From a virus: a stretch of DNA of 36,990 nucleotides. The notes beneath the pieces were generated by a model. The model did no database searches, had not been told where the DNA came from, and was given only the letters and a program-made list of their open reading frames with translations. The stretch is from the IMG/VR virus record IMGVR_UViG_3300049447_000017, positions 1 to 36,990 of that record. One strand, given 5' to 3'. The translations under genes were made by a program, and so were the position numbers. Of the stretch, positions 7,942 to 35,146 are shown piece by piece. Within the stretch, counting starts at the first letter, position 1. Every line of letters begins with the position of its first letter.

Positions 7942-8034
7942 TTGGCCACCGAAATGGATGGGTTTCAAAAGATCATCGTCATTGTCCTGTTGAGCCTCGT
8001 GGCGTTCATCTTCATGTTCTCGTGTTCGCTATGA
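7942..8034 (+). CDS. single-span membrane microprotein, 30 aa
   Basis: From TTG 7942 (or ATG 7954), with GGGGAGAGAG upstream. The segment IIVIVLLSLVAFIFMF is one clear transmembrane helix, and the peptide ends SCSL. The stop overlaps the next ATG in an ATGA junction, which favours real translation. Function unknown; small one-span phage proteins can act on host membrane enzymes. Confidence 0.5.
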   Translation: MATEMDGFQKIIVIVLLSLVAFIFMFSCSL

Positions 8035-8267: not shown

Positions 8268-8431
8268 GCGAGGTTGATTCGAGCTGCTACGACACCGCCG
8301 TGCGCTTTCTCAAGAAGGTCAAGGGTGCCACCGCCGAGGACATGCAGGAGCTTGCCGAGGCGATCCAAAAACTGTGCGAGGAATTCTGCGGTGGCCTCGC
8401 CGCTGACGAAGCCGGCGAGAAAGACATCTAA
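8264..8431 (+). CDS. acidic helical small protein, 55 aa
   Basis: Starts in an ATGA overlap. Composition is acidic and helical (YDTAVRFLKKVKG, AEDMQELAEAIQKLCEEF), ending in LAADEAGEKDI. It has three cysteines. The small acidic helical character resembles phage inhibitors that mimic DNA or bind host enzymes, but there is no direct evidence. No family recognised. Confidence 0.55.
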   Translation: MSEVDSSCYDTAVRFLKKVKGATAEDMQELAEAIQKLCEEFCGGLAADEAGEKDI

Positions 8432-8441
8432 GGGGGGATGG

Positions 8442-8753
8442 ATGGCCGACCATGCATTTCTAGTGCAGCTCTCGAAGAAGCTGACCGACGAAGGCAAGCT
8501 GATCGAGGCCGGCTTCGTCGGGCTTCGGCTTGCTGGTTTCAAAGCGAACGCGACACCCGAAGAACTCAACGACGCGCGGATCGTGTTCTTCGCGGGTGCG
8601 TCGCATCTGTTCTCCAGCATCATGACGATCTTGGCGCCCGGCACCGAGCCGACCGACAAAGACCTCGACCGCATGAGCAAAATCCACGAGGAGCTGGAGC
8701 GCTTCCTCAAGGACTTCAAGCTACGCTACGGCACGACGCTCGGATCGGCGTGA
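8442..8753 (+). CDS. hypothetical helical protein, 103 aa
   Basis: Starts at ATG 8442 after an AGGGGGG site. The protein is helix-rich: FLVQLSKKLTDEGKLIEAGFVGLRL, a loop NATPEEL, a hydrophobic helix NDARIVFFAGASHLFSSIMT and a terminal basic helix LERFLKDFKLRYG. The middle pattern (TPEELNDARIVFFAG) is the kind seen in phage proteins of unknown role. No function is assigned. Confidence 0.6.
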   Translation: MADHAFLVQLSKKLTDEGKLIEAGFVGLRLAGFKANATPEELNDARIVFFAGASHLFSSIMTILAPGTEPTDKDLDRMSKIHEELERFLKDFKLRYGTTLGSA

Positions 8754-9178
8754 TGGTCGCGCTCTCGTTCAAGGAAATGTTCGTCGACCCGATCCGCGTC
8801 GGGCTTGACTGGGGCCCCGACGTCGATGTGATCGGCATGGAGCCGAAGCGCCAGACGATCCGAGCGAACGGCAAGCGGCGCCCGCCGCGACCGGGCGAGA
8901 CGCTGCAACTCTATTGCGGTATGCGCACCAAGAAGTGCTTCAAGATCGGCGACGCGCGCTGCACCAAGGTCGAGCCGATCGTGCTCGAATTCTACGCGAC
9001 GGGGTGGCGCGTGCGGATTATGATCAACGGTCGGCGCCTCCTGTGGCCAAAGACCGAGCGCTTTGCACGCGCCGACGGCTTCGCCTCGCTCAATGACTTC
9101 ATCTCCTTCTGGCTCGCGGTGCATGGCGCACCGCCGCGCTGGACCGGCAACGTGATCTATTGGGAGCCGCTGACATGA
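8753..9178 (+). CDS. ASCH-domain-like protein, 141 aa
   Basis: ATG 8753 in a TGATG junction. The middle carries KRQTIRANGKR, then PGETLQLYCGMRTKKCFKIGD, then ARCTKVEPI. That is the ASCH-fold signature: an initial basic TIR segment, a GxxLxLYxGxRTK strand, and a following strand. ASCH domains bind RNA or nucleosides, and the fold is related to PUA. Phage examples lie among early genes and may alter host RNA metabolism. The C-terminal 50 residues add a helix-rich end (FASLNDFISFWLAVHGAPP). Function remains inferred from the fold only. Confidence 0.6.
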   Translation: MVALSFKEMFVDPIRVGLDWGPDVDVIGMEPKRQTIRANGKRRPPRPGETLQLYCGMRTKKCFKIGDARCTKVEPIVLEFYATGWRVRIMINGRRLLWPKTERFARADGFASLNDFISFWLAVHGAPPRWTGNVIYWEPLT

Positions 9179-9399
9179 GAGATGAGATGACAGAAGAGCT
9201 GCTCGCCAAGCTGCGCGCCGCCGGCTGGCGAGTCGCCTGCCATAACGACTACCGGCAGAACGGCGTCGCCATGACGTTCTGGCTGATGACACACGAGTGC
9301 GGCGTCTACGTGATGGGCGAGGCCGAGACCGACATCGAGGCGTTGCGCATCATCGAGGCGCAGGCGGCGAGGAAGGTGCGGCTCACGTGGGCTCCATGA
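9175..9399 (+). CDS. hypothetical protein, 74 aa, last plus-strand gene
   Basis: Overlaps the previous stop by four bases. A helical N-terminus (MTEELLAKLRAAGW) is followed by two strands (VACHNDYRQ, AMTFWLMTHE) and a C-terminal helix (EALRIIEAQAARK). No family recognised. It is the last gene of the early operon. Its end overlaps the end of the convergent minus-strand gene by 17 bases. Confidence 0.6.
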   Translation: MRDEMTEELLAKLRAAGWRVACHNDYRQNGVAMTFWLMTHECGVYVMGEAETDIEALRIIEAQAARKVRLTWAP

Positions 9400-9895
9400 C
9401 CGCCACGCGATCCGCCCAGCCGACTATCTCTGGCGGCGCCGGCTGCGGCCACTCCCATCCGATAGCGCCGCCCCTCCATAGCATCGGCCGCAACAGCCTC
9501 TTCGCGGCGATCTCGGCCTCCACCTCCTGCATCGATGCGAAAAATCGGATCGGTGCACTGGTCGGGCAGTCGATGCTTCGCTCCGTCCCCGTGTGCGCAT
9601 AGACGATGCCATTGCCGGCGAAGAGAGTCTCGTACAGCGCGAACAGATTGGCGACGTTTCCCTCGTTCTCGAAGATTGCTCGGCGCTCGCACGCGACCGA
9701 ATAGCCGATATCACCTTCCGTCGCGGGCTGGTGGACGATGCCATGGTCGAGCTGGAGCGGCTCGGTCAAGCCCATGAGCGCGAGCGCCGCATTGATATCG
9801 TTCGCGCGGATGAACGCGATCTTGCGCTCGGCCGGCACGACCGTCGCAAACACCAAGGTGTCATAGCCGGCCTTCGACTTGTGATAGCTGTTCAT
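9383..9895 (-). CDS. hypothetical protein, 170 aa
   Basis: Starts at ATG 9895, with AAGGAGAG eight bases upstream; the frame extends to 9919 without support. The protein is mixed: an N-terminal strand (YDTLVFATVVP), a helix (DINAALALMG), and a middle segment with RRAIFENEG and FALYETLFAG. The last third is tryptophan- and proline-rich. No motif recognised. It lies just past the strong minus-strand terminator at 9928-9956, so expression needs read-through or a promoter not visible. It overlaps the last early gene tail to tail. Confidence 0.6.
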   Translation of the reverse strand: MNSYHKSKAGYDTLVFATVVPAERKIAFIRANDINAALALMGLTEPLQLDHGIVHQPATEGDIGYSVACERRAIFENEGNVANLFALYETLFAGNGIVYAHTGTERSIDCPTSAPIRFFASMQEVEAEIAAKRLLRPMLWRGGAIGWEWPQPAPPEIVGWADRVAVMEPT

Positions 9896-9927
9896 GTGGG
9901 TCTCTCCTTCGCTTCGCACCGTACAAC

Positions 9928-9956
9928 AAAAAAAGCCCCGGCGGTGAAGCCGGGGC
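9928..9956 (-). terminator. intrinsic terminator of the late operon (minus strand)
   Basis: Perfect eight-base stem GCCCCGGC/GCCGGGGC with a six-base loop (9935-9956), followed on the minus strand by seven T (9934-9928). It lies downstream of the papain-like gene and should end transcripts from the late operon. Confidence 0.85.
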
Positions 9957-9994
9957 AGAATCCATTGAGGGTAGTCCGTGCAGGTGTGTTGTTA

Positions 9995-10669
9995 TCACGC
10001 CTTCAGTTTCAATTCCATAGCGGTGCAGGCTTCGCCGTCCTGCGACAGGAGCCAGGCGAGCGCCTGGAACGAGAGCCAGGCGCGGCCACCGTCTTCCCAG
10101 GTGTGGCCCCAGCTGTTGAGGACGCGGACCGCACCGCGGCCGTGCGGGGACGCGCGCAGCCGGTTGGCGCCGACCAACAGATAGGCGTGGCCGCCGGCCA
10201 CCTTGCCGCCGATGTCGTCGATGAAGCCGGCATGATCCGCCGCGAACATGCCCTCGGTCCAGATCGTGCCCATGACCACGGGCCCGACCGTCAGCAGATG
10301 ATCGATGATCGGATCGACGGTGAACGCCCAGTTGTAGGTGCTGACATAGCCGCGCAGCTGCAGCGCCTTGAACAGGCCACGCACGCTCGACCCCTCGTAA
10401 TCCTCGCCCGGCCATTCGTCTTGCTGCTGGGCGAAGTGATAGAGATCGGTCGGGCTGAATGCCGGCCGGTTGCTGGTCGGGAACGCGGTGAGCCAGCCAT
10501 AACCGGAATAGCCGACGCATTGCGACGTGGCGCCCTGGTCGAGCACCTCGGGCGCCGTCCAGTAGCGTTGCGCGCGGATCGCCGCCTCCGGTCGGGGCTG
10601 CAGCAGAAACTTGTGATCGCGGTCGTCCTTGCTCACCAGGCGACCGAGCGCAGCCATCGGGCTTACCAT
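9995..10669 (-). CDS. papain-like (C1) cysteine peptidase
   Basis: A 224-residue protein with a near-consensus ribosome site (AAGGAGGT). It has the three papain landmarks in order: VLDQGATSQCVGYSG, with the probable nucleophile Cys51 after an oxyanion Gln at 45; GGHAYLLVG, with His161; and VLNSWGHTWEDGGRAWLSF, with Asn185. There is no signal peptide and no visible propeptide, so it resembles short cytoplasmic or phage C1-type peptidases. It lies at the end of the lysis block, beside the coiled-coil and holin-like genes. Cleavage of a peptide cross-link during lysis, or processing of a virion or host protein, are both possible. The family call is firm and the substrate is unknown. Confidence 0.85.
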   Translation of the reverse strand: MVSPMAALGRLVSKDDRDHKFLLQPRPEAAIRAQRYWTAPEVLDQGATSQCVGYSGYGWLTAFPTSNRPAFSPTDLYHFAQQQDEWPGEDYEGSSVRGLFKALQLRGYVSTYNWAFTVDPIIDHLLTVGPVVMGTIWTEGMFAADHAGFIDDIGGKVAGGHAYLLVGANRLRASPHGRGAVRVLNSWGHTWEDGGRAWLSFQALAWLLSQDGEACTAMELKLKA

Positions 10670-13979: not shown

Positions 13980-14399
13980 CTAGGAGCCACCCGAGATGCC
14001 GCCCGAGACCGATTGCGCGAGCTTGCGCAGCACCTCGATGCGCCCGCGGAATTGCGTGAGCACCTTGTCGCCGACTTCGACCGTCAGCTCGTCGACATAG
14101 AAGCCGACCGGCAGCGGTCCGCTTTTCTGCGCGGGAACGGTGATGAAACACTCGCCGGCAATGAGGTCGCCGCTCACATCCTCGGTGAGCGCGATGCCGT
14201 TACCGACGGTCAATTCGAGCACGTTGACGTTGGCCGAATTGTTAAGCCGCCAGATGATCACGGCGCCGGCAAGGTTGATCTTGTTGCCGTCGCCATCCTC
14301 GACGCTCGCCGCGATCTCCCAGGTGTCGCCGGCATAGAATTGCTGCGGCGGGTGTGCGGTCACCTCGCCGGGATGGAGCTGGAGGAAGGCGGTGGTCAT
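13980..14399 (-). CDS. BppU-like baseplate/fibre protein A, 139 aa
   Basis: Beta-rich with the pattern FYAGDTWEIAASVEDGDGN, then GAVIIWRLNNSANVNVLELTV, FITVPAQKSGPLPVGFYVDE and LTQFRGRIEVL. This resembles the N-terminal domain of BppU-type upper-baseplate proteins: a binding strand, 'GD' turn, residues linking strands, and a final 'G.i.v'. A second protein of the same kind lies at 23410-23796, so the two are probably paralogues with different partners. Its start overlaps the preceding gene's stop (ATGA) and it ends flush with the next start. Confidence 0.6.
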   Translation of the reverse strand: MTTAFLQLHPGEVTAHPPQQFYAGDTWEIAASVEDGDGNKINLAGAVIIWRLNNSANVNVLELTVGNGIALTEDVSGDLIAGECFITVPAQKSGPLPVGFYVDELTVEVGDKVLTQFRGRIEVLRKLAQSVSGGISGGS

Positions 14400-16810
14400 T
14401 GGCCTCTACCCTTTCCTGCGCGGCCGGCGATGGCGGCCCGGCCACTCTTGCCGACCGTCCGCGGCGGGCCGCTTCGCGTGTGGCGCAAGCGGTGGTCGAC
14501 GAAGTGCAGCAACGGCCGCCCGAGCACGGGCGCGCCGACGATGAGCGCCATCCCGCCCACCTCCGGGGTGCCCAGCGCAGGCGAGCCCGTGGCGAGGCCG
14601 CTGGCTGCGAAAACGTGCTTCTGCCCTGTCAGGGGAGCGCCCAGCGCCGGGGACGCAACGGTGAGCCCACCGGTGGCGAGTGCGAACTGGCGGGTGAACA
14701 CCGGAGTCCCGAGCACCGGCGACCCGGTCGCCAGGTTGGTCGCGGTCAGGACGTGCTTCTGCCCGAGCACCGCCGGACCAAGGACCGGCGAGCCAAGAGC
14801 GGGCGGCACCGCCACCCACACGCCGACCACGGTAAACAGCGGCGTGCCAAGGACGGGGGACCCGACAGTCTTGCCGGCGGCCACCGGCGAGAGCAGGCTC
14901 GGCGTCCCCAGAATGGGCGACCCGACAGTCTTGCCGGCGGCCACCGGCGACAGCACGTTCGGCGTCCCTAGAACGGGCGACCCGACAGTCTTGCCGGCGG
15001 CCACCGGCGACAGCACGTTCGGCGTCCCTAGAACGGGCGACCCGACGGTGAGATTCGTGGCCTTGGTGTTGACGAGGTTCGGCGTGCCGATGACCGGCGA
15101 GCCGGTCGCCAGGTTCGTCCCCACGAACACATGCGCCTGGGTGATCGCGGGTGCGCCAAGAACGGGCGAGCCAACGGCGAGGTTGGTCGCCGCGAGCGGG
15201 ACCACGATCGTGAGCGTCGCGGGGCCGAGGACCGGCGAGCCAACGGTGAGGTTGGCGGCCTTGGTGTTGACCAGGTTCGGCGCGCCGAGAACAGGCGAGC
15301 CGGTCGCCAGGTTGGCGGCCTGGGTGTTGATGAGGTTCGGCGCGCCGATGACGGGCGACGAGACGGTGAGCGCGGTGGCGGTGAGCGCGGCGGGACCGAC
15401 GGCATCGGGCGCACCGATCGCTCCTTCGCCAACGAAAGAGCTTCCCGATCCGATAACAATCCCGGGCCCGATCGTATCGGCAACAACAATCGTAGTTCGG
15501 AGCACGACAGCGATGAGCGCGCCGTCGTCGACCTGATCGAGCGCGGTAATGCCGACAATCGTGTTGCCGGTTGGATCGCCGGTCGCCCACGCACCGTCTG
15601 ACGCGCTACCAGTGTAGCGGGCAAGCTCAGAAAGCTCGGTGAGGTTCGACCAGGTAGTGACCGTGCCTTCGACGTTGCCGAAGAACGGCGCCCACGCGAC
15701 GATCTTGTCGCCAGTCTGCGCCGTCAACGATGGCAGAGTCCACGGCAGGGTGCCCGCTGACTCGTTTGTGAAATCGGAGTCACGCGCGGGGCTCGTGGGA
15801 TCGACGTTGCCCCAGAACGTAACTGAGATCAGCAGCGGCCATGTGCCGTCTGGAGTCGTGATATTCCATTTGAACGTGCCAGCCCCGATATCGGGGTTGC
15901 CTAACCAGCACAGGACGCCTTGCCAAGCGGAGGCGTTGTTGTCGCCGGCTTGGAAGCCCATGGCCGTGTCCACGCCACCTTTGGTGAACGTGTACGAACC
16001 CGAGGAAAACCGGCCGGATACGCCCGGCGAGTTACTCAACCCAACGACAATGCACGTCGTGCCGGCCGGGACGGTGATGGCCTGCGAACCGGTGGCGGTA
16101 ACGGGATTAGGCCCTTCGATGCGTAGGACCGAGCCAACCTGGAAGATACCTAGATTCGCTTTGATCTCGATCGCGGCTTGGGCGACACCTGCAAGAGCAA
16201 CGCCCACAACCAGATCGTTGAAGGAAGTCGATGTCGATATCGAACCAGTGCGCGACTGAGTTTGAACGCCAAGATCGGGACTCGATGCAAATCGACTCGA
16301 CCAGCCGGTGCCGGTCGTGATCGTGTTGCCGACGCCGTCGGCCAACCCCGCGCTCAAGACTTCTGAGGTCGTTGCCGGGGCCGCGTCTAGCGTCGTGGTG
16401 AATGGCGAGCTGCCAGTGGCGTCGATTCCTGAACTCTTCGCTCCGACCGGACTAACAGGATCATGGCCGATGTAGTTAAAGGCGTGCAGGATATAGCGGT
16501 AGATATTGTCGGAACCGGAGTCGACCGTCAGCGTCATGCTGGCGCCGACTCCATTAACCGGCGCCGTGTACCACGCGACAGTGTCCGCGCCGTCGTTAAG
16601 CGACTCGGCGATATTTCGCCGCGTCCAAGTCAGCCCCCCACCCGAGAGCGTCAGATTAGCCGCGACGGCAGTGTTGGCCGTGTTCTCAACAAAGACCGCG
16701 ACAGCGAGAAGAGAGTTGGTAGCAGGGGTGAACGCTGTCGTCGTAAAAGCGCCGGTCCCAAAGTTGGCGCTGGAACCAAACGCTCCAATATCAGTCCGGA
16801 TAAGCGCCAT
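14396..16810 (-). CDS. large fibre/adhesin with 14 GSPVLGxP-type repeats
   Basis: An 804-residue protein; the start overlaps the preceding stop (TAATG). Residues 1-490 look like two beta-sandwich regions with Ig or jelly-roll character (for example ATNSLLAVAVFVENTANTA and WNITTPDGTWPLLISVTFWG). Residues 500-765 hold 14 copies of a 15-22-residue unit built around GSPVLG[TAP]P (variants SSPVIGAP, GSPILGTP, ASPALGAP, GAPVLGRP). Three adjacent copies are nearly identical at the DNA level. The end, GRPLLHFVDHRLRHT, is shared with the 93-residue protein at 18289-18570. This is most likely a surface-exposed tail fibre or adhesin with a variable number of stalk repeats. There is no known enzyme domain. 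Confidence 0.75.
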   Translation of the reverse strand: MALIRTDIGAFGSSANFGTGAFTTTAFTPATNSLLAVAVFVENTANTAVAANLTLSGGGLTWTRRNIAESLNDGADTVAWYTAPVNGVGASMTLTVDSGSDNIYRYILHAFNYIGHDPVSPVGAKSSGIDATGSSPFTTTLDAAPATTSEVLSAGLADGVGNTITTGTGWSSRFASSPDLGVQTQSRTGSISTSTSFNDLVVGVALAGVAQAAIEIKANLGIFQVGSVLRIEGPNPVTATGSQAITVPAGTTCIVVGLSNSPGVSGRFSSGSYTFTKGGVDTAMGFQAGDNNASAWQGVLCWLGNPDIGAGTFKWNITTPDGTWPLLISVTFWGNVDPTSPARDSDFTNESAGTLPWTLPSLTAQTGDKIVAWAPFFGNVEGTVTTWSNLTELSELARYTGSASDGAWATGDPTGNTIVGITALDQVDDGALIAVVLRTTIVVADTIGPGIVIGSGSSFVGEGAIGAPDAVGPAALTATALTVSSPVIGAPNLINTQAANLATGSPVLGAPNLVNTKAANLTVGSPVLGPATLTIVVPLAATNLAVGSPVLGAPAITQAHVFVGTNLATGSPVIGTPNLVNTKATNLTVGSPVLGTPNVLSPVAAGKTVGSPVLGTPNVLSPVAAGKTVGSPILGTPSLLSPVAAGKTVGSPVLGTPLFTVVGVWVAVPPALGSPVLGPAVLGQKHVLTATNLATGSPVLGTPVFTRQFALATGGLTVASPALGAPLTGQKHVFAASGLATGSPALGTPEVGGMALIVGAPVLGRPLLHFVDHRLRHTRSGPPRTVGKSGRAAIAGRAGKGRGQ
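14861..15040. repeat. three 60-bp tandem repeats inside the fibre gene
   Basis: Period exactly 60 bases (20 codons). The copies start at 14861, 14921 and 14981. The second and third are identical base for base; the first differs at a few positions. They code for the SPVLGTPNVLSPVAAGKTVG unit. Identity of two copies shows a recent duplication by slippage or unequal exchange. Other repeat copies left and right are divergent. Confidence 0.85.
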
Positions 16811-18575: not shown

Positions 18576-20411
18576 CTATTCGGCCGCGGCGGCGGACGCC
18601 CCGTGCTCGGTGAATCCCTCCAGCGCCTTCGAGACGTCGGCGATGACGCTCGCCCAGTCGCGGAAGGCCGGCTGCCGGAAGATCGACATCGACGGATACC
18701 AGATGGTCTCCGAGCCTTTCAGCCCCCAGCGCCAGTCGGGATCGAACGAAAGCAGAAGCCACACCGGCACATCCATGGCGCCGGCCAGATGCGCGATCGA
18801 GGTGTCGACCGTGATCACGAGATCGAGCGAGGCGATCGCCGCCGCGGTGTCGGCGAAGCTTTCGAACTGTCCGTCTTGCGCCAGGTTGAGGAATGGACCG
18901 AAGCGGCGGCCGATCGGCTCCAAGAGCTCCCGCGGCACATCGCGGGTGAACGGCCGCTCGCTCCTTGGCGAGCCGCGGTCGCAGATGCCGATCTTGGTGT
19001 AGCCGAGCTGGCGATTGCGCCAGTTGGCGGTCAACGTGTCGTCGGCGAAGAGATATGGGCCGACCATGCGCATCATCGCCTCATCGGCACCAAGCGCGGC
19101 CGGCGTCGAGGGGAGCGAGCAATGCAGCTTGTAGGCGGGGAGCGAGCGGCCCATGCGGTAGAGGCCAGCCGGCGACAGGAATGACTCGTGGAATAGTTCG
19201 AACAGCTCAGGCGCGACTTCGAGGATCGCGTTGGGCGCACGCAGCCGCACGTGCTTGAAGAAGCGCGCGAACATGATGCCGTCGCCGAAGCCTTGTTCGT
19301 TCCAAATGAGGACCGGCGCCTCGGTCATCTCGCCTTCCCACTTCGGCACCGGATGCACGCGCTGGCCGCCGAACAGGTGCTTGTTGCGCTGGCCATAGCG
19401 CAGCTCGTAGGCCGGCCAGCCCTCTTTCCAGTTGCCGCGCTGCAAGGCCATCAGCCCTTTGATGGCGTGTGTCGGCTTGTGCTCCGGATCGCGCCGGAGA
19501 TTTTCCGCGATCAGCGCGGTCGCTTCGCCCTCGCGCTGCATCAGGTTTTGGTAGTGCGCCATCATCAGCCGGCCGGTGAGATCGTCCGGGTTGCGCGCGA
19601 CGCCGCGGGCATAGCGGGTGATCTCGCGGTCGAACATCTCGTCGTCGTCGCGGATGTCGGCCACCTCATCGAGCTGCACCACCTCGATGCCTTTTTCCTC
19701 GGGGACGCACACCATCATCAACGAGGCGATGGCCGCGAAAATATTCTTCTTCTCGCCGCGGAAATTCTGCGGGTTGAACAGCGGCGGCCGGTGCCAAAAG
19801 AGCCGGTAGCCCATATCGATGATGGCACCGATCAGCGCGGCCGACTTGTCCTCGCGGTCGTTCTCGACGTAGAGGATCGGCCGGCAGCGCTTGATGGTCT
19901 CGGCGGCGCCCTGGATGATCTCCAGCTCGCAGCCTTCGGCGTCGATCTTGAGAAAGTGCAGCGTGTCGAGCTTGAGATTGTCGATCGGCTCCCGGCGCAC
20001 CCATTGCCCGCCGCTGCCGATCTCGACCCGGCCATAGTTCTTGTGCGGTAGCTCGGCCAAGCGCGGTATGCGCGTCGAGCCGTAGTGACAGCCGGCCGCC
20101 ATCTCCTTCACCTCGACGAACGCGCAGTCGTTGTGCGCCAGGTTGAGGCGCAGCAGCTCGGCGTTGTCGAGGCTCGGTTCATAGACGATCAGCTTGCCGG
20201 TCGGCCCGATGATCTTGGCCATCGGCACGGTGAGCGCGCCGATGTTGGCGCCGACCTCGATCGCAACCTGGCCGGCGCGCAACACCTTCTGAAAGACGAG
20301 AACTTCCTGCTCGCTGTACTCGCCATATCTGGCGAGGCTCGCGCCCACGAACTCGTCGCCCTTGTAGAAGCGAAACGCGCCGTGCCGCGCGTTGACCACG
20401 TCGGTCTGCAT
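18576..20411 (-). CDS. FkbM methyltransferase - TPR - GT9/GT41-like glycosyltransferase fusion
   Basis: A 611-residue protein with GGGAGAGG before the ATG. Residues 45-235 are an FkbM-type SAM-dependent methyltransferase: motif I VAIEVGANIGALTV (49-62), VYEPS (77-81) and the FkbM mark FLKIDAEGCELEIIQGA (153-169). Residues 262-345 read as tetratricopeptide repeats. Residues 365-600 resemble TPR-linked glycosyltransferases: VLIWNEQGFGDGIMFARF (367-384), then DLVITVDTSIAHLAGAMD (530-547) and DPDWRWGLKGSETIWYPS (558-575). FkbM enzymes methylate sugar hydroxyls, so this could place and cap a sugar on the phage's own fibre or on a host surface glycan. It is embedded in the fibre operon. The domains are clear; the substrate is not known. 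Confidence 0.85.
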   Translation of the reverse strand: MQTDVVNARHGAFRFYKGDEFVGASLARYGEYSEQEVLVFQKVLRAGQVAIEVGANIGALTVPMAKIIGPTGKLIVYEPSLDNAELLRLNLAHNDCAFVEVKEMAAGCHYGSTRIPRLAELPHKNYGRVEIGSGGQWVRREPIDNLKLDTLHFLKIDAEGCELEIIQGAAETIKRCRPILYVENDREDKSAALIGAIIDMGYRLFWHRPPLFNPQNFRGEKKNIFAAIASLMMVCVPEEKGIEVVQLDEVADIRDDDEMFDREITRYARGVARNPDDLTGRLMMAHYQNLMQREGEATALIAENLRRDPEHKPTHAIKGLMALQRGNWKEGWPAYELRYGQRNKHLFGGQRVHPVPKWEGEMTEAPVLIWNEQGFGDGIMFARFFKHVRLRAPNAILEVAPELFELFHESFLSPAGLYRMGRSLPAYKLHCSLPSTPAALGADEAMMRMVGPYLFADDTLTANWRNRQLGYTKIGICDRGSPRSERPFTRDVPRELLEPIGRRFGPFLNLAQDGQFESFADTAAAIASLDLVITVDTSIAHLAGAMDVPVWLLLSFDPDWRWGLKGSETIWYPSMSIFRQPAFRDWASVIADVSKALEGFTEHGASAAAAE

Positions 20412-26854: not shown

Positions 26855-27403
26855 TCATGTGGTCGGTACGGCCATGTTGCTGGTATTGAGCGCGTGCTCG
26901 ATGGCCGCTTCACGCGCCTGGTCTTGCCAGAAGAGTTGATAACGCAGCTCCACCGCCACCAACGGGCCGCGATAGAGCACCGCCATCACATCGATGCGCT
27001 CGCGCGTGACCAGCTCGGCGACGACGTCGACCCGCGATGCGATGCGGCGCTCGATGAAGGGGCGCAGCGCCTCGCGTACATAGAACTCGGCGCGCGCGAT
27101 GGTGGCGCCCTCGATCGATTCCGGCCCGGTGATCTTGGCCCGGGTGAGGAGCCAGGTGCGCGAGCCGATCGGCCAGCCGCCCCAGATCGCCTCGGCGTCG
27201 AAATCGCCCCACCAGCCGCGGCGGTCATTACTGTCAAGGTCGGGCAACACGTCGTCGACCTGCGCGAGCCGGTCGGTGCCGAGCGCCACGATCACCGCGG
27301 TCGCGAGCTGCTGCGTTTCGTCGAGCATGCCGAGCGGCTTGAGAAACCAGTCGAGCGTTATCTCGAACGGCGTCTTGATCTGGACGATGCGGATGTCGGT
27401 CAT
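26855..27403 (-). CDS. Mu gp46-like baseplate protein, 182 aa
   Basis: Starts at ATG 27403, coupled by ATGA to the 40-residue membrane microprotein. The pattern DQLAQVDDVLPDLDSNDRRGWWGD is not present exactly, but RLAQVDDVLPDLDSNDRRGW followed by GSRTWLL and AEFYVREALRPFI matches the gp46 family ('...D.RGwwgD.......GSrlWLL.r.K...........a..ya.eaL.....'). This is a baseplate wedge component, W-like in T4 terms. Order relative to gp45 and gp47 is as in Mu, apart from the inserted FTR1 and microprotein genes upstream. No ribosome site is evident, so coupling is likely required. Confidence 0.85.
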   Translation of the reverse strand: MTDIRIVQIKTPFEITLDWFLKPLGMLDETQQLATAVIVALGTDRLAQVDDVLPDLDSNDRRGWWGDFDAEAIWGGWPIGSRTWLLTRAKITGPESIEGATIARAEFYVREALRPFIERRIASRVDVVAELVTRERIDVMAVLYRGPLVAVELRYQLFWQDQAREAAIEHALNTSNMAVPTT

Positions 27404-27522
27404 GGGGTGCCCAACACGATGAGGACATAACCGGCGAGGAGGAGGCAGAGGCCGGTGATGAACAAGGCTATGCGCTCGGGGCGCGACAGCTTGCGCCCGC
27501 TCGGCGTGCGCGGATCGATCAC
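27400..27522 (-). CDS. single-span membrane microprotein, 40 aa, between FTR1 and gp46
   Basis: GTG at 27522 overlaps the FTR1 stop (GTGA) and the stop overlaps the gp46 ATG (ATGA). After a basic N-terminus (DPRTPSGRKLSRPERIA) comes LFITGLCLLLAGYVLIVLG, one transmembrane helix, then TP. It may be a companion of the permease or only a translational bridge. The double overlap means it is a designed part of the operon, not chance. Confidence 0.65.
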   Translation of the reverse strand: MIDPRTPSGRKLSRPERIALFITGLCLLLAGYVLIVLGTP

Positions 27523-28118
27523 AGCGCCTCCCAGACGAAGAAACCGGCCTGGAAGATCAAGAAGACTGACGAGAACGCGAAGATCAGGCGGATCGGCAAT
27601 TGCGCGGCGACCAGGCGCAACAAGAAAAAGACCCCGATGAGCGCCAGGGCGGCGAGCGCGATGCCGGTGAAGATGGCGCTCGTCCAGCCGCCCGCGTTGA
27701 TGCTGAGCGCTTCGGTGAACAAGAGAAGCTCGAATGCCTCGCGCGCCACCACCAGAAACGTGAGCATGAAGAGCGCCACCGGTCGACCGCCGGTTGAAAG
27801 CACGCGCCGCTTGATGACGTCTTCCTTCTTGGTACCCAGAAAGCGGAAGAGGAGAAGCCCGCGCGCGACATAGAGCATGAGCGCCGCTGCGACCAGGAGG
27901 ATCGCCTTGTCGGCGAATTCGCTGTGCAACCCCGCGAGCCCGACGGACAGCCCTAGAACGATATTAATCGAAACGCCGGCCACGGCCCCGCTGTGGATCG
28001 GCAAGAGGCTCGCCGCCGGGTTGGTCTGCCGCGCGACCCTCGCCACGGTGATGACGATCAGCAAAACCTCGATGCCTTCGCGCAGGAAGATCACAAATGC
28101 GGCCACGACGATTTCCAT
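27519..28118 (-). CDS. FTR1/EfeU-type iron permease homologue
   Basis: A 199-residue membrane protein starting at ATG 28118, one base after the stop of the upstream gene. It has about six or seven hydrophobic helices. The two glutamate motifs of the FTR1 family are present: FLREGIEVLL (residues 11-20, REGIE) and VAREAFELLL (124-133, REAFE), in helices 1 and 4. In yeast Ftr1p and bacterial EfeU these REXXE motifs carry ferric iron through the membrane. The length is shorter than bacterial EfeU (about 270), mainly at the C-terminus. It lacks a partner EfeO/EfeB gene here. Iron transport is inferred from the motif; its place in a tail operon is unexpected. Confidence 0.85.
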   Translation of the reverse strand: MEIVVAAFVIFLREGIEVLLIVITVARVARQTNPAASLLPIHSGAVAGVSINIVLGLSVGLAGLHSEFADKAILLVAAALMLYVARGLLLFRFLGTKKEDVIKRRVLSTGGRPVALFMLTFLVVAREAFELLLFTEALSINAGGWTSAIFTGIALAALALIGVFFLLRLVAAQLPIRLIFAFSSVFLIFQAGFFVWEAL

Positions 28119-28119
28119 G

Positions 28120-30213
28120 CTACCTCGACAGGCAGATGCCTTCTGGTGAGGCAAACGCCGGATGAACCCATTTGTTTTCCGCGAGAAGCTGCTCGGCGCG
28201 CGAACCATCGGCGAAGATGCGATGCGCGATCCAGAGCCCCGGCATTGAATTTGCGAACGCATAGGGGACGACCCGCGGCAATTGCCGGCTGCGTTCGGCG
28301 AGATCGCGCACCGCCGCCGCGCGCAGCGTGACCAGGGACCGGTAGGTCATGGCGTCGTGCTCGTCGGCAACGTCTTCCTCGGCGGCCTCGAAGGCCACCG
28401 CGATGCGCTTGAGCGCAAAGAGCGCGTCGTCGCGGCTCTCGTAGGTGGTCGACGCCGTGAGCGCCGCCATCTGCACCAGGGTCAATTGCACGGTCAGGTG
28501 CGCCACCGCCTCGCCGGGGACGAACACCGGCATCTCTGCGAGCAGGCGCGCCCGCGCGGTCATGAAGCCCTCGAAGGTCGCGCCGGCCGCACGCGCCAGC
28601 GCCCAGGCTTCTGCCGCCTTGGGGCCGAGCGTGCCGTCGTTGATCAGGGTCTTGCCGTCCGCCCGGATGGCGCCGACGGCGCGGCGGAAGTCCCAGGCTG
28701 GCCGGCCGACCTGGCGCCCCGGCACCGCGCCGATGAGGGCATCGAGCGCCCGGTTGAGGATCGCGTCCGCTTCGGCGAGCTGCGACGAATGGGTCGGGAT
28801 CATCGCCCATGGGCCGAACGGATGCTTGAGACGCGGCCGTCCTATCTCCGGCGACGCGACCGCCACGCCCACGGCCCCGAAGCCGACCAGGCCGGGGATT
28901 TGGATGACCGGCGAACCGACCGTCAGGTTGGCCTTCAGGAGCGCGTGCTTCTGCGTGAACTCCGGAGACCCGATGTCGGGCGACCAGGACGGCATCAACG
29001 CGGTCAGATTGATCGAGTTCTTGGTGTAGGTCGGCGTTCCGAAGACCGGCGAGCCAACCGTCAGGCCGGTCGCAGTCAGCGCGACCGAGGACGACTCGGT
29101 CATCATGATCGGGCCGAAGGTGGCCGAGCCCGACGTGCCGCCGCGGATCACATAGTTGAGATCGTCGGTCGCCAGGAAGCTATCGTTGTTCGACGTGTCT
29201 TCGAACCAGCCGGTGCCAGTGATCGAGAGCTGCTGATTGGCGTCGGCGCCGTTCTTGCGAAGTCTGAGCGTGAACGCCGAGCCCATGCTGTACGACGAAA
29301 CATGCGCCCGCAGATTGCGCGCCTTGCCGGCGAAATGGTGCTTAATCTTCCATGGCGCTTCGGTCGTGGTCGGCGCGTGGGTGCCGAGTAGCGCCAAGAA
29401 ACGATCGGAGGCATTGAACGCGATCGCCCCGATGAGATGCGAGAAAATCTCGTTCTCGTTGGCGTCATAGTCGATGTGCGACGAAATCCAGAACTGCGTC
29501 GACGCAATCACGCTTTGGTTCGTCGTGCGAAGCGAGATGAGATCGCCATCGGCGAACGTGTCGGTGTGGCTGGTGTCCTCGAATGTGCCGGTGGTGTTGG
29601 CGGGGCATGTCGCGGTGATGTTGCCGTTGTTGACGTTCTTGCGAAGCGTCATCACCATCGAGCTGGTGCCGTCGCCGAAGACGTGAAACGCGACGTTCTT
29701 GATCGTGCCAGACGTGCGCATGAGCGCCTGGGCACTGGTCTCCGTGCTGCTTTGGTCCGTACCGGCGGCGCCGCCCGAGAGCGGGGAAAAGAACGTCCCT
29801 GTGTGCGGAAAGCAGAGCTGCGTCGCATAGGGCGAGTTGTGACCGCTCGATCCCTCCCAGACTGCTTTGAGCCAGTACCAGGTGGTTGTTCCGGTTTCAA
29901 CGTTCCGCGAACCGTGAAGGTCGCCAGCCGAGTAGCTGTCAGAGTGCGTCGTGTCGTAGACGATCTGCGCGGTGGTATCGGTGAAGCTGACCGTGAGATT
30001 GACCGGCGAACCGTTCTTGCGGTTCGTGTTCGATCGGCCGGTCCCGACGTTGTCCACCGAGCCGCCGAGATTCGACATCGTCCCGGCATTGCGCATCGTG
30101 ATTTGCGCAAAACCTTCGGTGACGAGACCGCCGAGGTCGCCCAAGTAATAAGTGAAGGCGGTCCCAGAAAACGGGCCTCCGGAATAGCCGCCGCCGATGA
30201 GTGCCTTGCCCAT
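28120..30213 (-). CDS. fibre-cassette fused to gp43 C-terminal part, 697 aa
   Basis: The N-terminal 360 residues are beta-rich, with a repeated 'F.DTS..D.f..gDl..l......s' element (TGTFEDTSHTDTFADGDLI and WFEDTSNNDSFLATDDLNY) as in some tail-surface proteins. Residues 375-450 carry degenerate GSPVFGTP, IGSPEF, GSPVIQIP and ASPEIGRP repeats, the motif of the large fibre at 14396. From about 460 to the end the sequence turns helical. It matches the C-terminal region of Mu gp43-type DNA-circularisation proteins: YESRDDALFALKRIAV, LRAAAVRDLAERSRQLPRVV, WIAHRIFADGSRAEQLLAEN and KWVHPAF. So the gene looks like a fibre cassette joined to the second half of gp43. It directly precedes the FTR1 gene. 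Confidence 0.7.
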   Translation of the reverse strand: MGKALIGGGYSGGPFSGTAFTYYLGDLGGLVTEGFAQITMRNAGTMSNLGGSVDNVGTGRSNTNRKNGSPVNLTVSFTDTTAQIVYDTTHSDSYSAGDLHGSRNVETGTTTWYWLKAVWEGSSGHNSPYATQLCFPHTGTFFSPLSGGAAGTDQSSTETSAQALMRTSGTIKNVAFHVFGDGTSSMVMTLRKNVNNGNITATCPANTTGTFEDTSHTDTFADGDLISLRTTNQSVIASTQFWISSHIDYDANENEIFSHLIGAIAFNASDRFLALLGTHAPTTTEAPWKIKHHFAGKARNLRAHVSSYSMGSAFTLRLRKNGADANQQLSITGTGWFEDTSNNDSFLATDDLNYVIRGGTSGSATFGPIMMTESSSVALTATGLTVGSPVFGTPTYTKNSINLTALMPSWSPDIGSPEFTQKHALLKANLTVGSPVIQIPGLVGFGAVGVAVASPEIGRPRLKHPFGPWAMIPTHSSQLAEADAILNRALDALIGAVPGRQVGRPAWDFRRAVGAIRADGKTLINDGTLGPKAAEAWALARAAGATFEGFMTARARLLAEMPVFVPGEAVAHLTVQLTLVQMAALTASTTYESRDDALFALKRIAVAFEAAEEDVADEHDAMTYRSLVTLRAAAVRDLAERSRQLPRVVPYAFANSMPGLWIAHRIFADGSRAEQLLAENKWVHPAFASPEGICLSR

Positions 30214-30216
30214 CGA

Positions 30217-30588
30217 TTATCCCTTCAAGACAACAAGCTCGGCCTGTTCATCAGAGGCGATCACTTCTCCCACGGGCACCTTTGGATTTGCGATCACCTC
30301 GTCGATCGCCTCCTTCGTCGCTCCTCTGATGACGAAGTTGTCCTGCGCGTCGTAGCTGACGCTCAGAGCCTCGCGATCGGCCCCGGCATCGACGAGCGCG
30401 CGCACCACCTCGTTCTTTTTTCGATTGTGCTTGAGCAATTGCTCGGCGAGCGCCGGCCCCGGAAGGTCCGCGTGCTTCTTGCACGTGCGCACCGCCACGA
30501 CATTGGTCAGCTGCTCGCCGACTGTCTCGAACTCGATGATGCAAGCACACGTATCCGGTGACCAGCGCGTGGCCATGGGCCGCTCCAT
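30217..30588 (-). CDS. hypothetical protein, 123 aa, Cys/His motif
   Basis: The start is ATG 30588 (TAATG junction) or ATG 30576, which has GGAG upstream. The protein begins RWSPDTCACIIEFETVG and has CKKHADLPG, giving Cys-x-Cys and Cys-x2-His pairs that could bind one metal. The rest is alpha/beta (EQLLKHNRKKNEVVRALVDA, VVALVDAGAD style). Genes with an 'RWSPDTC.C.iE' opening occur next to tail-fibre genes in phages of high-G+C hosts, but I do not know their role. It lies in the stretch that separates the two gp43 pieces. Confidence 0.6.
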   Translation of the reverse strand: MERPMATRWSPDTCACIIEFETVGEQLTNVVAVRTCKKHADLPGPALAEQLLKHNRKKNEVVRALVDAGADREALSVSYDAQDNFVIRGATKEAIDEVIANPKVPVGEVIASDEQAELVVLKG

Positions 30589-30674
30589 TAGTTGCGCCGA
30601 ATGAAATAGATAAAGGCACCGAGGACCACGACAGCCCCGAAGAGGAAGAGCACGAATTGCTGCGGCTCGCTCAT
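30588..30674 (-). CDS. single-span membrane microprotein, 28 aa
   Basis: ATG 30674 overlaps the stop of the gp43 N-terminal gene (ATGA) and the TAA overlaps the next ATG (TAATG). Sequence: MSEPQQFVLFLFGAVVVLGA, then FIYFIRRN. It is one hydrophobic helix with a basic C-terminal end. The tight overlaps on both sides suggest real translation. Together with the 40-residue protein at 27400 it is one of two membrane microproteins inside the tail operon. Confidence 0.6.
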   Translation of the reverse strand: MSEPQQFVLFLFGAVVVLGAFIYFIRRN

Positions 30675-31207
30675 GGCGTCAGCGTGCCGAAGCGCGCCAG
30701 CGTGTTGGCGAAGGAGGTGGCGCTTTGCGCGCTGGCCGCACTGACCGCGCTGTTGACCGCGCCGGTCGTGTTGGTGAACGCGATCTGGTTGGCCGGCCGG
30801 CCGTATTCAATGAAGCGCATCTCGACGGTGCAGTAGCCGCCGCGCTCGCGGTTCTCACTCATCGAGTAGCGTTCGCACACGACCATCAGCTCGGGCATGG
30901 TCGGATGGATCAGGAGGCCCGGGCCCTCCCGCTCCAGCGCGTCGCGCAGCCGATCGCGGCCGGTGCGGTAGTCCATCCCGAGCCGGCGATCGCCTTCGAT
31001 GAAGTAGCCGGTCAGGTCGAATTGAATCGTGCGCTTGCCCATGTCCTCGGCGTAGGGCTCGTCGCGCTTGGGATATTCGTGCATGGCGATGCGGCGGCCG
31101 GAGAGCCGCGCGCCGGTCTCGACATGGAACTGCGCATCGCGGAAGGTCGCGACCCGCAGCGCGAGCCGCCACTTGGCCGGCGAGCGTTCGCTGATCCAAG
31201 TGCCCAT
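30671..31207 (-). CDS. gp43-like DNA-circularisation protein, N-terminal part only
   Basis: A 178-residue product whose stop overlaps the next microprotein and whose start overlaps the gp45-like gene. It shows the DNA_circ_N pattern: FRDAQFHVETGARLSGRRIA, then MHEYPKRDEPYAEDMGKRTI, FDLTGYFIEGD, a basic DRLRDALEREGPGLLIHP and a final VEMRFIEYG. Normal family members are about 400-500 residues, with a C-terminal part that here appears in the 697-residue gene at 28120. The frame stops after a Ser/Ala-rich linker (ASAQSATSFANTLARFG). I read this as a split gene. It is still likely to fold as a baseplate-hub adaptor. Confidence 0.8.
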   Translation of the reverse strand: MGTWISERSPAKWRLALRVATFRDAQFHVETGARLSGRRIAMHEYPKRDEPYAEDMGKRTIQFDLTGYFIEGDRRLGMDYRTGRDRLRDALEREGPGLLIHPTMPELMVVCERYSMSENRERGGYCTVEMRFIEYGRPANQIAFTNTTGAVNSAVSAASAQSATSFANTLARFGTLTP

Positions 31208-31854
31208 CAGGCGTCCTCTTTCGGCCCGAACCAGTTGTGCGTCGTGCCCTCGGCTTTGATCACGCCGCCCTCGCTCTTGCTCAGGATGTCCTTGTCGGTC
31301 TTCAAGGTGATGCCATCCTTGTCGAGGCGGACCGAGGTCTTGTCGCCGAACTTGAGCGTGATGTGGTCCTTCTCGTGGATGATCGAGGTCTTCGGCGTGC
31401 GCTGCTCGCCGGCATCCTGGCCGTAGTCCTTCTCGCCGCGCGATTTGCCGTCGACCACCTCGCTCACGACCTTCTTGGTCGACGAGTGCACGATGGCGTC
31501 GCGCGTGATCATGGTCCGCTGACCCTGATCGTCGTAGAGCGCGACCTCGCCCGGCTTCATGTTCTTGAGCCGGTGCCGGCGGTCATCGATCATGAACGCG
31601 ACGGCGTGGCTTCGGTTGCCGCCGAGGAAGGCGACCAGCACCTCGGCGATGTGCGGGTCCTTCTCGTCTTTCTCCGGAAGCGGCACCGAGGTGAAGCCGT
31701 ATTGCTGGAAGCGCTCGACCTTGGTTTTTTTCTCCCCGAAGTGAAGGTCGACGTCGACCTCCTGCATCAGCTTGTCGTCCTTGGCCTTCTTCAGCGTCCC
31801 GCGCGTGAGCAGGAGAAACGCGCGGTTAGCGGCGTCGCGAACTGTCGAGCGCAT
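31207..31854 (-). CDS. Mu gp45-like baseplate spike/puncturing protein
   Basis: A 215-residue product with AGGAGAGG before ATG 31854. It has an OB-like opening (TKVERFQQYGFTSVPLP), a strand AEVLVAFLGGNRSHAVAFMI, then a beta-helix tip region: RSHAVAF, VALYDDQGQRTMITRDAIV, HITLKFGDKTSVRLDKDG and ITLKTDKDI. This is the layout of Mu gp45/pyocin spike proteins: an OB domain, then a triple-stranded beta-helix. A C-terminal metal site is not obvious. It lies between gp44 and gp43 in Mu order. Confidence 0.8.
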   Translation of the reverse strand: MRSTVRDAANRAFLLLTRGTLKKAKDDKLMQEVDVDLHFGEKKTKVERFQQYGFTSVPLPEKDEKDPHIAEVLVAFLGGNRSHAVAFMIDDRRHRLKNMKPGEVALYDDQGQRTMITRDAIVHSSTKKVVSEVVDGKSRGEKDYGQDAGEQRTPKTSIIHEKDHITLKFGDKTSVRLDKDGITLKTDKDILSKSEGGVIKAEGTTHNWFGPKEDA

Positions 31855-31865
31855 GTGAGCCTCTC

Positions 31866-32954
31866 CTAGAATTGCACACCGGCGCCGAAATAGAACGCCG
31901 GATTGACGCACGTCAGCTTGGTCATCGTGCCCCCCTCGTTCGTCTGCGTGAACGTGATCGCCTGCACGGCGAGATTCTCGGAGACCATCGCCGACGGCGA
32001 ATTGACATAGACCAGCTCGTCGGGCGCCGCCTGCCAGAGCCCGCCGCCGGGCTTGTGCCAGCCATAGACGTCGATCTCGGCGCTGATCTTGGTGACGTCG
32101 CGCCAGGCCATCTCGTAGTCGAGACGCATCTTCAATTCCTGCTGCAGGCGTTGCGGCCCGAGCGAGCGCTCCATCAGAAACAGATAAGGCTTGTAGCGCG
32201 TCGCGCTGCCCTTCTGACGAAGCTCCTGTTGCGCGACGTCGCGACCCCACTTCTGGTCGGTGCCCCACGCCTGCCCCATGGCGATGCCGGGGTTGATCAA
32301 TTCCATGTCGGTGATGACGACGCGCTCCGACTGGATGTTCTCGCCCTCGATCAGCGCCGCGCCGCTGCCGGCCTGGGCACCGCCGGACTCGCCACCGTAC
32401 AGGACGAAGTTGCCGGCGTTGTCGTCGCCGATGAAGGCGGCGGACCGGCGCGCCAGGCGCTCGATCATGTGGAACGGGGACTCGCCGGGCATCACCTGCG
32501 CATCCTCGAAGGGGATGTTCATCTTGCTGCTGTCGCCCTTGGTGACGACCTTGATGCCGTAGGGCTTGAGCAGCTCAGTCGCGATCTGGACGAGCGACTT
32601 GTCGCGGAATTGCCCCTTCTCGCCGAGCTTCGTGTGATCGATCGAGGTGCGCGTGGTGTCGCCCGGCAGGCTTTGCCCGACCAGGAGCACCGCATGACGC
32701 CCGGCGTCGAGCACGGTCTGCCGCTCGTAGATGTAGCCGGTGATCGCCAGCTCGCCGCCGAGATGCACTTGCGCCTGGTCGCCCGGCTTCAGTTGCAGCT
32801 TCGACATCGTGAGCGCGCCCGGCGACTGCTCGGAGACCGAGAACCGGAAGGTGCGAAAGATGCCCGGGAATTCCAGGTGCACCGTGACGCTTTCCCATTC
32901 GCGGTACTCGGCCCCGTTGACGGTGATGATGGCGGTCTCTTCTGGTTTCGGCAT
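31866..32954 (-). CDS. Mu gp44-like baseplate hub (late-control D family)
   Basis: A 362-residue protein whose start overlaps the tape-measure stop. N-terminal strand-rich region TVNGAEYREWESVTVHLEF, then the hub pattern FRFSVSEQSP, LQLKPGDQAQVHLGG and ELAITGYIYERQTV. The middle contains SLVQIATELLKPYGIKVV and MPGESPFHMIERLARRSAAF. The final region includes QQELKMRLDYEMAWRDVTK. This is the gpD/gp44/gp27-type hub that connects tail tube and spike. The order tape measure, gp44, gp45 corresponds to Mu if gp43 is placed as found here after gp45. Confidence 0.85.
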   Translation of the reverse strand: MPKPEETAIITVNGAEYREWESVTVHLEFPGIFRTFRFSVSEQSPGALTMSKLQLKPGDQAQVHLGGELAITGYIYERQTVLDAGRHAVLLVGQSLPGDTTRTSIDHTKLGEKGQFRDKSLVQIATELLKPYGIKVVTKGDSSKMNIPFEDAQVMPGESPFHMIERLARRSAAFIGDDNAGNFVLYGGESGGAQAGSGAALIEGENIQSERVVITDMELINPGIAMGQAWGTDQKWGRDVAQQELRQKGSATRYKPYLFLMERSLGPQRLQQELKMRLDYEMAWRDVTKISAEIDVYGWHKPGGGLWQAAPDELVYVNSPSAMVSENLAVQAITFTQTNEGGTMTKLTCVNPAFYFGAGVQF

Positions 32955-35146
32955 CAGTTGCCATCCCAGCGCTCGGAGAAGCTCGCGGGCGCCTCGGCGT
33001 CGGGCGTGGCGTGATCCATCTGCGTCGAGCGGTTGACCTGCGTCTTCTTGAACACGCCGTCGGCCTCGGCGCCGACCTTGGTGCCCTTCGGCGCGTTCAC
33101 GTCGACGGTGATGTTGGCGTTGCCTTCGATCTTGCCAGGCGCGCCCGAGGCGGCGCCGAGCGCCTTGTCGATGCGCTCATAGCTGAAGAGCCCGCCGGTC
33201 GGGAAGTTCTTCGGCGAATAGCCCATCTTGTCGGCGAGCGCAGACGAGATATCGATGCCTTTGCCGGTGCGCGGGTGCGGCCCGACGTCGGTCTGCTGTG
33301 TGACGAACTCGCGGCCGTCGGGCGTGCGCACCTTGAACCATTCGCCGACCGACTTGCGCGACGGGAGCGCGATGCCTTGCTGACTGTCCGGCACGCCGAG
33401 CACGTTGGAGCCCGCTTTATCGCCGCGATCAACCCAGCTGTGCTCCTTGCCCTGGAATTGCGAGAACCAACTCCCCTTCGCGACGCCGCTGGAATCGATG
33501 GCCGCGTTCGGAAATCGCTGCGAGCGCCGGCCCATCTGCTCGGGCGTGAAGCCGCGCGCCGACACGCCGCCGGACTGGAAGTGCATGCGGTCGTTCGGCG
33601 TGCCGGAGTTGAAATGACCGCCCCACGTGAATTTCTCGCCCGGGTAATTCTTCTCTTGATGCTGGCGCGCCGCGATCGCCATGTTCTCATAGATGCTCCA
33701 GCCGGGGACGTTGGGGCCGCCGAGGTAGGGCACCTTGTTGTTCTGCGGATCATAAATTTGGATGTCGATCGCGCGCCCGCTCGGATGCCATGGCGTGCCC
33801 GTGCCGCGCGAGTCGACGGACGAGATCACCTCGGCGCGGTAGCCCTCCGGCAGTGAGCGGCTCGCCTCTCGCACGGTGTCGACGAGCCAGGGCTGCGTCT
33901 GCACGCCGCCGCGCTGATAGCCGTGCGCGCCCGCCTCGCCGAGCCGGATGTCGCCACCAGCGGGCGGGATGGCGCCTTGCGTGCCAGGCACAACCGGCGG
34001 TGCCGCACCGCCGCCGGGCCCTCGGCCACCACCTGGGGCGGTGCCGCCACCGCCGGCCGGCGGGCCCTGCATGCCCGGCCAGGTGCCGAAGCGATCGCCG
34101 AACGGGGCAGCGCCGCCGCCTGGCGCACCACCGCCGCCGCCTAACCCTGGCCATGGATGCGTGCCGCCGGGACCGCCCTTGAACCATTCCCACAGACCAC
34201 CGCCGCCACCCCCCTCGCCGGTCTCACCAAGGATGAGCCGCTTGAACCATTTCGGCGTCACCAGGTCGATGCCGTCCATGAGCTTCTGCCACATGATCGG
34301 CATAGCGTTGGTGGCGTCCGTCATAATCTTGAGCATCGTGGTCACCCCGGGACCAACTTTGATCATCGTCGTGGTGTAGAAATTCTGCCACGCGACATCG
34401 AGTTCGTTGGTGAGGTCGGCCCACTCCTTGGTCTGCCTGGCGCTCACCGTGATCATGTCAGGGACCTTGGCGAGCTGGGCGAGGAAGTCGCCGGAGAGCT
34501 GCTTGGGGAAGCCCCACTCCTGCAACAGCATCGCGCGCGTCTGCGGGTCGAGCTTCTCAAGCTGGGTGAAGAACAGCTTGAGCGCGCCGATGTTGTCGGC
34601 CGGGTTAGCCCTCGTAAACGCAAGGATCGAATTGAAGAACGCGGTGCCGGCCGGGCCGTGGCTCCGCATTGTCTGCAGGAGATTTTGCGCCTCTCCGACG
34701 ATCGTGCCCTTCGGCCCGCCGGTCATCTGTTTCATGATGTCGGCGAAATGCGACAGCGAGTTTTGCATCTGGTCGGCGGTGACGCCGAGCCGCTGGCCGG
34801 CCATCTGCAACGCGTTCAAATCGTTGGCAGCGATCTTTGTTTGATCGGACAGGAGATGCAGGGCGACCGACGACGTCGTCAGATTGCGGAGCGAATAGAC
34901 GAGGCCGCCAATGACGCCGGCCGCGCTGATGCTGGTGATGCCGAAGCCTTCCAGCGTCGGCATCAATGCGTCCTTGATGCCGCTCGACGCCAGGCGCACA
35001 GCCTTATCGAGCTGCGATAGCTTATCGTTGGCCTCGCGCAAGCCAGGCCCGCGCGCGGTTTGTTCAAGCGCGTTTTGGAGCTTCTTCAGCTGCGGCGTGA
35101 ATTCATCCCGCAGCCTGGCCACCATTTCGAGCGGCGTTTCGGCCAT
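32954..35146 (-). CDS. tape-measure protein with wall-hydrolase-like C-terminal domains
   Basis: A 730-residue protein; ATG 35146 directly follows the TAG of the frameshifted chaperone. Residues 1-310 are helical with a central hydrophobic segment (LEGFGITSISAAGVIGGLVY, 65-84), the usual tape-measure core. Residues 311-400 are a Gly/Pro-rich linker. Residues 420-525 look like an M15-type peptidase: HPSGRAIDIQ (H454, D461), FTWGGHF and DRMHFQ (D519, H522). Residues 585-650 resemble an RlpA-like double-psi barrel: GIALPSRKSVGEWFKV, TPDGREFVTQQTDVGPHPRT and GIDISSALADKMGY. So the tape measure probably cuts peptidoglycan as the tail enters the cell. Domain calls rest on motif patterns. Confidence 0.8.
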   Translation of the reverse strand: MAETPLEMVARLRDEFTPQLKKLQNALEQTARGPGLREANDKLSQLDKAVRLASSGIKDALMPTLEGFGITSISAAGVIGGLVYSLRNLTTSSVALHLLSDQTKIAANDLNALQMAGQRLGVTADQMQNSLSHFADIMKQMTGGPKGTIVGEAQNLLQTMRSHGPAGTAFFNSILAFTRANPADNIGALKLFFTQLEKLDPQTRAMLLQEWGFPKQLSGDFLAQLAKVPDMITVSARQTKEWADLTNELDVAWQNFYTTTMIKVGPGVTTMLKIMTDATNAMPIMWQKLMDGIDLVTPKWFKRLILGETGEGGGGGGLWEWFKGGPGGTHPWPGLGGGGGAPGGGAAPFGDRFGTWPGMQGPPAGGGGTAPGGGRGPGGGAAPPVVPGTQGAIPPAGGDIRLGEAGAHGYQRGGVQTQPWLVDTVREASRSLPEGYRAEVISSVDSRGTGTPWHPSGRAIDIQIYDPQNNKVPYLGGPNVPGWSIYENMAIAARQHQEKNYPGEKFTWGGHFNSGTPNDRMHFQSGGVSARGFTPEQMGRRSQRFPNAAIDSSGVAKGSWFSQFQGKEHSWVDRGDKAGSNVLGVPDSQQGIALPSRKSVGEWFKVRTPDGREFVTQQTDVGPHPRTGKGIDISSALADKMGYSPKNFPTGGLFSYERIDKALGAASGAPGKIEGNANITVDVNAPKGTKVGAEADGVFKKTQVNRSTQMDHATPDAEAPASFSERWDGN

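Follow-up and report, generated by a model that had tools for sequence, protein, structure and literature searches.

The closest described relatives of the proteins reported here are the tail-tube initiators that form the centre piece of phage baseplates. In phage Mu, gp43 (PDB 9ki1), also called 'DNA circularization protein N', is a hexameric tail-tube initiator in which a tube-like barrel is followed by a flexible loop and by a helix-rich domain with a LysM module; this helix-rich domain, whose N-terminus lies near the tube, holds the wedges (PMC11915804). Milano gp25 has the same build, its middle helices occupying the wedge groove and the LysM module coming last (PDB 8fqc; PMC10811340), and both this protein and gp114 of phage 7-7-1 (PDB 9rku; PMC12796354) are known as one headless chain of 398 residues. 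Tube initiator and LysM protein are separate chains in A-1(L) (gp18 and gp16) and in T4 (gp53) (PMC10966104, PMC10811340), so that a two-chain solution is workable in contractile tails. Among deposited phages, separate N-only and C-only genes for gp43, in this order, also occur in Rhizobium phage PPF1 (gp17 and gp18), in Komagataeibacter phage phiKM1 (540 and 550) and in PHROGs 16855 and 17109. Our literature search found no paper describing a clade with a split gp43 or a fusion like the one presented below, which does not prove that none exists.

We analyzed a viral stretch of 36,990 nucleotides (IMG/VR record IMGVR_UViG_3300049447_000017), hereafter the window. Its structural genes lie on the minus strand and are transcribed in the order tape measure (35146-32954), gp44 hub, gp45 spike, gp43N (31207-30671), a 28-aa membrane ORF, a 123-aa Cys/His ORF, a 697-aa ORF (30213-28120), an FTR1-like permease gene, a 40-aa membrane ORF, gp46, gp47 and a gp48-like gene, the latter labelled from gene position alone. 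The features of interest are the following.

31866..32954, minus strand: gp44 hub gene, now 5' of gp43N (Gp44-like_2nd, E 6e-16; phrog_177, E 1.5e-55)
31207..31854, minus strand: gp45 spike gene, adjoining gp43N upstream (Phage_Mu_Gp45, E 1e-12, on its 3' part)
30671..31207, minus strand: gp43N, a 178-aa chain matching the tube-like barrel domain of the tail-tube initiator (DNA_circ_N, phrog_184 and PDB matches)
30588..30674, minus strand: ORF for a 28-aa membrane microprotein (TM), with an ATGA overlap with gp43N
30217..30588, minus strand: 123-aa Cys/His ORF (ORF list)
28120..30213, minus strand: 697-aa fusion of a head, a GSP linker and gp43C (single open frame; phrog_184 at the C end)
29074..30213, minus strand: head, residues 1-380, three tandem beta modules (internal repeats, AF2, Foldseek, homologues in viral contigs)
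28819..29073, minus strand: linker, residues 381-465, GSPVxGxP repeats (repeat matches to an 804-aa protein of the window and to the fusion of the related contig L006)
28120..28818, minus strand: gp43C, residues 466-697, predicted complete helix-rich domain with a LysM-like end (AF2 and Foldseek)
27519..28118, minus strand: FTR1-type iron permease gene, between gp43C and gp46 (FTR1 Pfam; two REXXE motifs)
27400..27522, minus strand: 40-aa membrane (TM) ORF, overlapping the FTR1 gene and gp46 (ORF list)

The start codon of gp45 was picked by comparison with L006. Inspection of the junctions revealed TGATG between gp45 and gp43N, ATGA between gp43N and the 28-aa ORF, TAATG between the 28-aa and 123-aa ORFs, a 3-nt gap before the 697-aa ORF and a 1-nt gap between the latter and the FTR1 gene. 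The tight stop/start overlaps and short gaps described in an earlier note on this DNA are thus all present, as are the fibre-like GSPVxGxP region, the 28-residue membrane protein and the Cys/His protein that it had placed between two halves of gp43. Two features had been overlooked. The FTR1-like and 40-aa TM genes (27400-28118) also separate the C half from gp46, and the gp43 pair sits after gp45, as in L006, instead of occupying the place between tape measure and gp44 that it has in Mu and in nearly all relatives. Two further observations concern the tail genes. The tape-measure protein (32954-35146, minus strand) contains an M15 peptidase-like stretch at residues 453-524 with a sub-threshold E of 2e-4, and a 611-aa protein (18576-20411, minus strand) combines an FkbM methyltransferase domain with a glycosyltransferase-9-like end.

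The identity of the two gp43 pieces is well founded. The protein encoded at 30671-31207 comprises the N-terminal domain alone, with a DNA_circ_N match above the Pfam cut-off (E 8e-24) and a match to positions 4-158 of the 411 of phrog_184, whereas in the 697-residue protein the phrog_184 match covers residues 569-688 and profile positions 278-400 (E 1.5e-16). As complementary ends of one profile family are matched, the two ORFs hold complementary ends of gp43; stop codons lie between them, and the reading that they must function as two chains, one of which bears an extra beta module (the head region of the 697-aa chain), was borne out. Against the PDB, gp43N matched Mu gp43 (9ki1, E 6e-15), Milano gp25 (8fqc, E 8e-13) and, in that E range, the barrel of the 7-7-1 protein. 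When the entire 697 residues were modelled with AF2, gp43C alone was resolved: the last ~230 residues form a helix bundle predicted with high confidence save for the LysM end, pLDDT being mostly 88-98 over residues ~471-640 and 59-82 thereafter. In Foldseek the only PDB matches of this model below 1e-3 were three tube initiators, 8fqc (E 5e-6), 9rku (2e-5) and 9ki1 (2e-5), the Milano and 7-7-1 proteins providing the closest folds. Together with the phrog_184 match, this identifies the helix-rich and LysM-like part expected of gp43. According to the model, the C half is a complete domain and not a fragment. Since the PDB matches and the model fit the two-domain build of tube initiators, the cut lies at the natural loop; its site coincides with the domain boundary seen in the Mu and Milano structures. 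Compared with Mu gp43, the same two domains are thus found as two chains instead of one, with an extension of 465 aa (beta-rich head plus GSP linker) on the second. The likeness to A-1(L) is one of arrangement and does not imply homology: its LysM protein is small (~152 residues), whereas in the window LysM remains joined to the entire helix-rich domain, which bears the head.

We consider it probable that gp43 was split long ago, that the pair of genes then moved, and that the C chain gained a linker and a swappable head displayed at the baseplate. The 697-aa ORF is a single open frame with a Shine-Dalgarno-like AAGGGA ahead of its ATG. A long N-terminal extension of gp43C was found only in the window, L006 and L010, and the full head fusion only in the first two, the extension of L010 being short and built from a third repeat type. 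The window and L006 are sisters (99*); they have the same gene order, a GSP linker in common and gp43C domains ~62% identical, and no similarity is detectable between their heads. A shared anchor and linker combined with unrelated beta-rich heads is what one sees when tips are exchanged on a conserved anchor. The linker, of ~85 residues, matches the L006 fusion as well as the repeats of the 804-aa protein (E 9e-14). That protein (14396-16810, minus strand), which has no Pfam match, is beta-rich at its N-terminus and contains GSPVLGTP many times over, the repeat also present in the linker.

The head of the window consists of three tandem modules, as judged from internal repeats, and the unrelated L006 head also displays three tandem repeats (z 8-14). 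Searched against Pfam and PHROGs, the window head gave no match even at E 10, and as a single-sequence query it retrieved no relatives from viral contigs. Viral contigs besides the window nevertheless encode modules of its type; most of the proteins concerned have ~400-740 residues and contain exactly three of them. With these homologues as alignment, AF2 gave a model of the head with a pTM of 0.84, and the solved structures placed closest to it by Foldseek include C1q/TNF trimers of the PDB, several of them engineered single-chain forms (E 8e-7 to 3e-5, with a low TM-score of 0.23-0.26 of the query). Its closest viral models in BFVD include minor tail, C1q and collagen-like proteins, several in a tail context. 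The module fold is likely a C1q/TNF-like jelly roll, whereas TM-scores this low leave a ring of the three modules tentative. In predicted module fold the window head resembles the C1q/TNF-like heads that minor tail and collagen-like proteins of phages carry, while no sequence family covers the window head. A phage family of three tandem jelly-roll-like modules can be recognized in L168-L182, among which L179 and L182 hold many more modules.

The alternative that deserves most attention is that the head is not displayed on gp43C, being cut off after translation or bypassed by an internal start of gp43C, and works elsewhere or in assembly. The head family is mostly a separate protein in other phages, and an in-frame ATG at codon 471 falls exactly at the start site of the stand-alone C genes. 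However, no Shine-Dalgarno-like sequence precedes this ATG and no start codon is kept at the site in L006, so one fused chain appears likelier than two products, and we set the internal start aside. Moreover, both phages retain the linker and the way it joins gp43C, while their heads differ. The position of the N-terminus of the Mu helix-rich domain counts against display, because the linker would have to thread between the wedges, and the head, with its 380 residues, might be removed by cleavage or have a role in assembly. On balance we judge this alternative unlikely, and we keep the displayed head as the preferred reading.

Extended upstream, the FTR1 ORF matches Pfam FTR1 above the cut-off (E 2e-11) and contains two REXXE motifs, REGIE and REAFE, as in the FTR1 family. 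An FTR1-type iron permease gene lies inside a phage baseplate operon and overlaps its neighbours. It has no relative in IMG/VR viral contigs and a single weak, partial match in phage records; the 123-aa ORF has no relative in either set, and the 28-aa ORF no family match in Pfam or PHROGs. L006 is devoid of the 28-aa, 123-aa and FTR1/40-aa genes, and the stop of its gp43C adjoins the start of gp46. Their insertion at gene borders probably took place in the lineage leading to the window, although they could instead have been lost from L006, and nothing seen at the locus links them to the hub. The scarcity of good phage relatives for FTR1 and the 123-aa ORF, added to the fact that no other copy from the same species was seen for this viral record, might evoke an assembly chimera with artefactual joins or a decaying prophage with dead genes. 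We hold this to be very improbable: gene order and type of fusion recur in L006, which is an independent contig, every frame is open and the genes are closely packed, and gp43C has retained the invariant residues of the family.

We then consider the age of the split. Single-sequence searches with gp43N retrieved one locus each from viral and genome contigs, and alignment queries were required. Relatives from 167 sources were annotated with profiles built from these proteins: 132 had two gp43 ORFs, 30 had one and 5 were incomplete. After removal of redundancy, gp43 was encoded by two genes in 102 of 131 loci and by one in 29, counts that describe loci retrieved with queries near the window rather than all phages. 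In 100 of the 102 split loci no other mapped tail gene separated the N and C halves. Their commonest junction was a 4-base ATGA overlap (67 of 132, before redundancy removal), and 1-nt overlaps were also usual. In a tree of gp44, gp46 and gp47, every member of the window's clade has a split gene, and the single-gene loci fall on the other side. That side also includes phiKM1, with a separate split at a different point, beside the unsplit phiAP1. By these comparisons the split is old and widespread, and the two-gene form is the rule among the nearest relatives. Split genes are also observed in the more distant L004 (phiKM1, 7977-9307), L003 (PPF1, 8995-10087) and L087 (9992-11127). PPF1 and phiKM1 differ from the window by their canonical order and lack of insert, and the later cut of phiKM1, after 254 residues (254 + 189 aa), suggests separate splits.

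A clade split throughout and a cut at a domain boundary indicate that the cassette was not the cause of the split. The earlier note had proposed that a mobile cassette landed in an intact gp43 and broke it in two, the reading being repaired afterwards; a cassette does sit between the halves and intact gp43 exists in more distant phages, but with 102 non-redundant split loci nearly all cassette-free, and with the halves plainly adjoining in L089 and L002, close to the rearranged lineages, we see almost no room for this scenario. There was no arrangement to repair, the cassette having entered a pre-existing gene border. The two-gene form as ancestral state in related phages, which that note had opposed to its own view, is essentially what we found.

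The pair has also changed place. The canonical position of gp45 is downstream of gp43 and gp44, and nearly all relatives, split or unsplit, follow the order tape measure-43N-43C-44-45-46-47. The order tape measure-44-45-43N-43C-46 was observed in the window and L006 only. L010 probably shares it, because its 43C directly precedes gp46, the contig ending upstream. In L034 and L047 the order is 44-45-43N-tape measure-43C, the tape-measure gene lying between the gp43 halves (L034 8992-12782; L047 8965-12572). An AU test rejected one common displacement event for window/L006 and L034/L047 (p 2e-12), the tested group having been picked after the gene orders, not the tree, had been seen; it did not reject a single origin of window, L006 and L010 (p 0.58). 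On this test the L034/L047 rearrangement is independent of the window/L006 kind. Finally, gp44 is placed in other ways in L089 and L139.

We propose the following history. In the ancestor of a large phage clade, as the comparison of loci shows, gp43 was cut at the loop, giving two overlapping genes whose translation was probably coupled. In the window's lineage the pair then moved behind gp45, and the freed N-terminus of the C chain, as the comparison with L006 shows, was extended with the GSP-repeat linker and a swappable head of three jelly-roll-like modules. The old split made such an N-terminal fusion possible without parting the tube domain from its partner, and on the comparison of loci the head is an addition made after the split, not its cause. 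In the particle, gp43N would form the first tube ring, and six gp43C domains would occupy the wedge grooves and, as in Mu and Milano, lock wedges and hub together. We infer that each gp43C would project one head through the linker, if flexible, to the baseplate surface as an adhesin. With a single anchor chain on each wedge there would be no fit for an ordinary trimeric fibre, but a trimer within one chain would be suitable. More tentatively, the split at the loop could have created a docking end beside the wedge for swappable single-chain-trimer adhesins. This would allow receptor binding at the baseplate core, away from the wedge-protein sites where fibres usually attach.

Mu, Milano and 7-7-1 build the tube initiator, a core part, from a single chain, and in the clade described here it is regularly made of two chains. 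A freed chain with exchangeable heads would show a rigid core protein becoming a site of adhesin capture. In addition, a natural two-piece gp43 would allow tube initiation, wedge locking and DNA circularization to be tested domain by domain.
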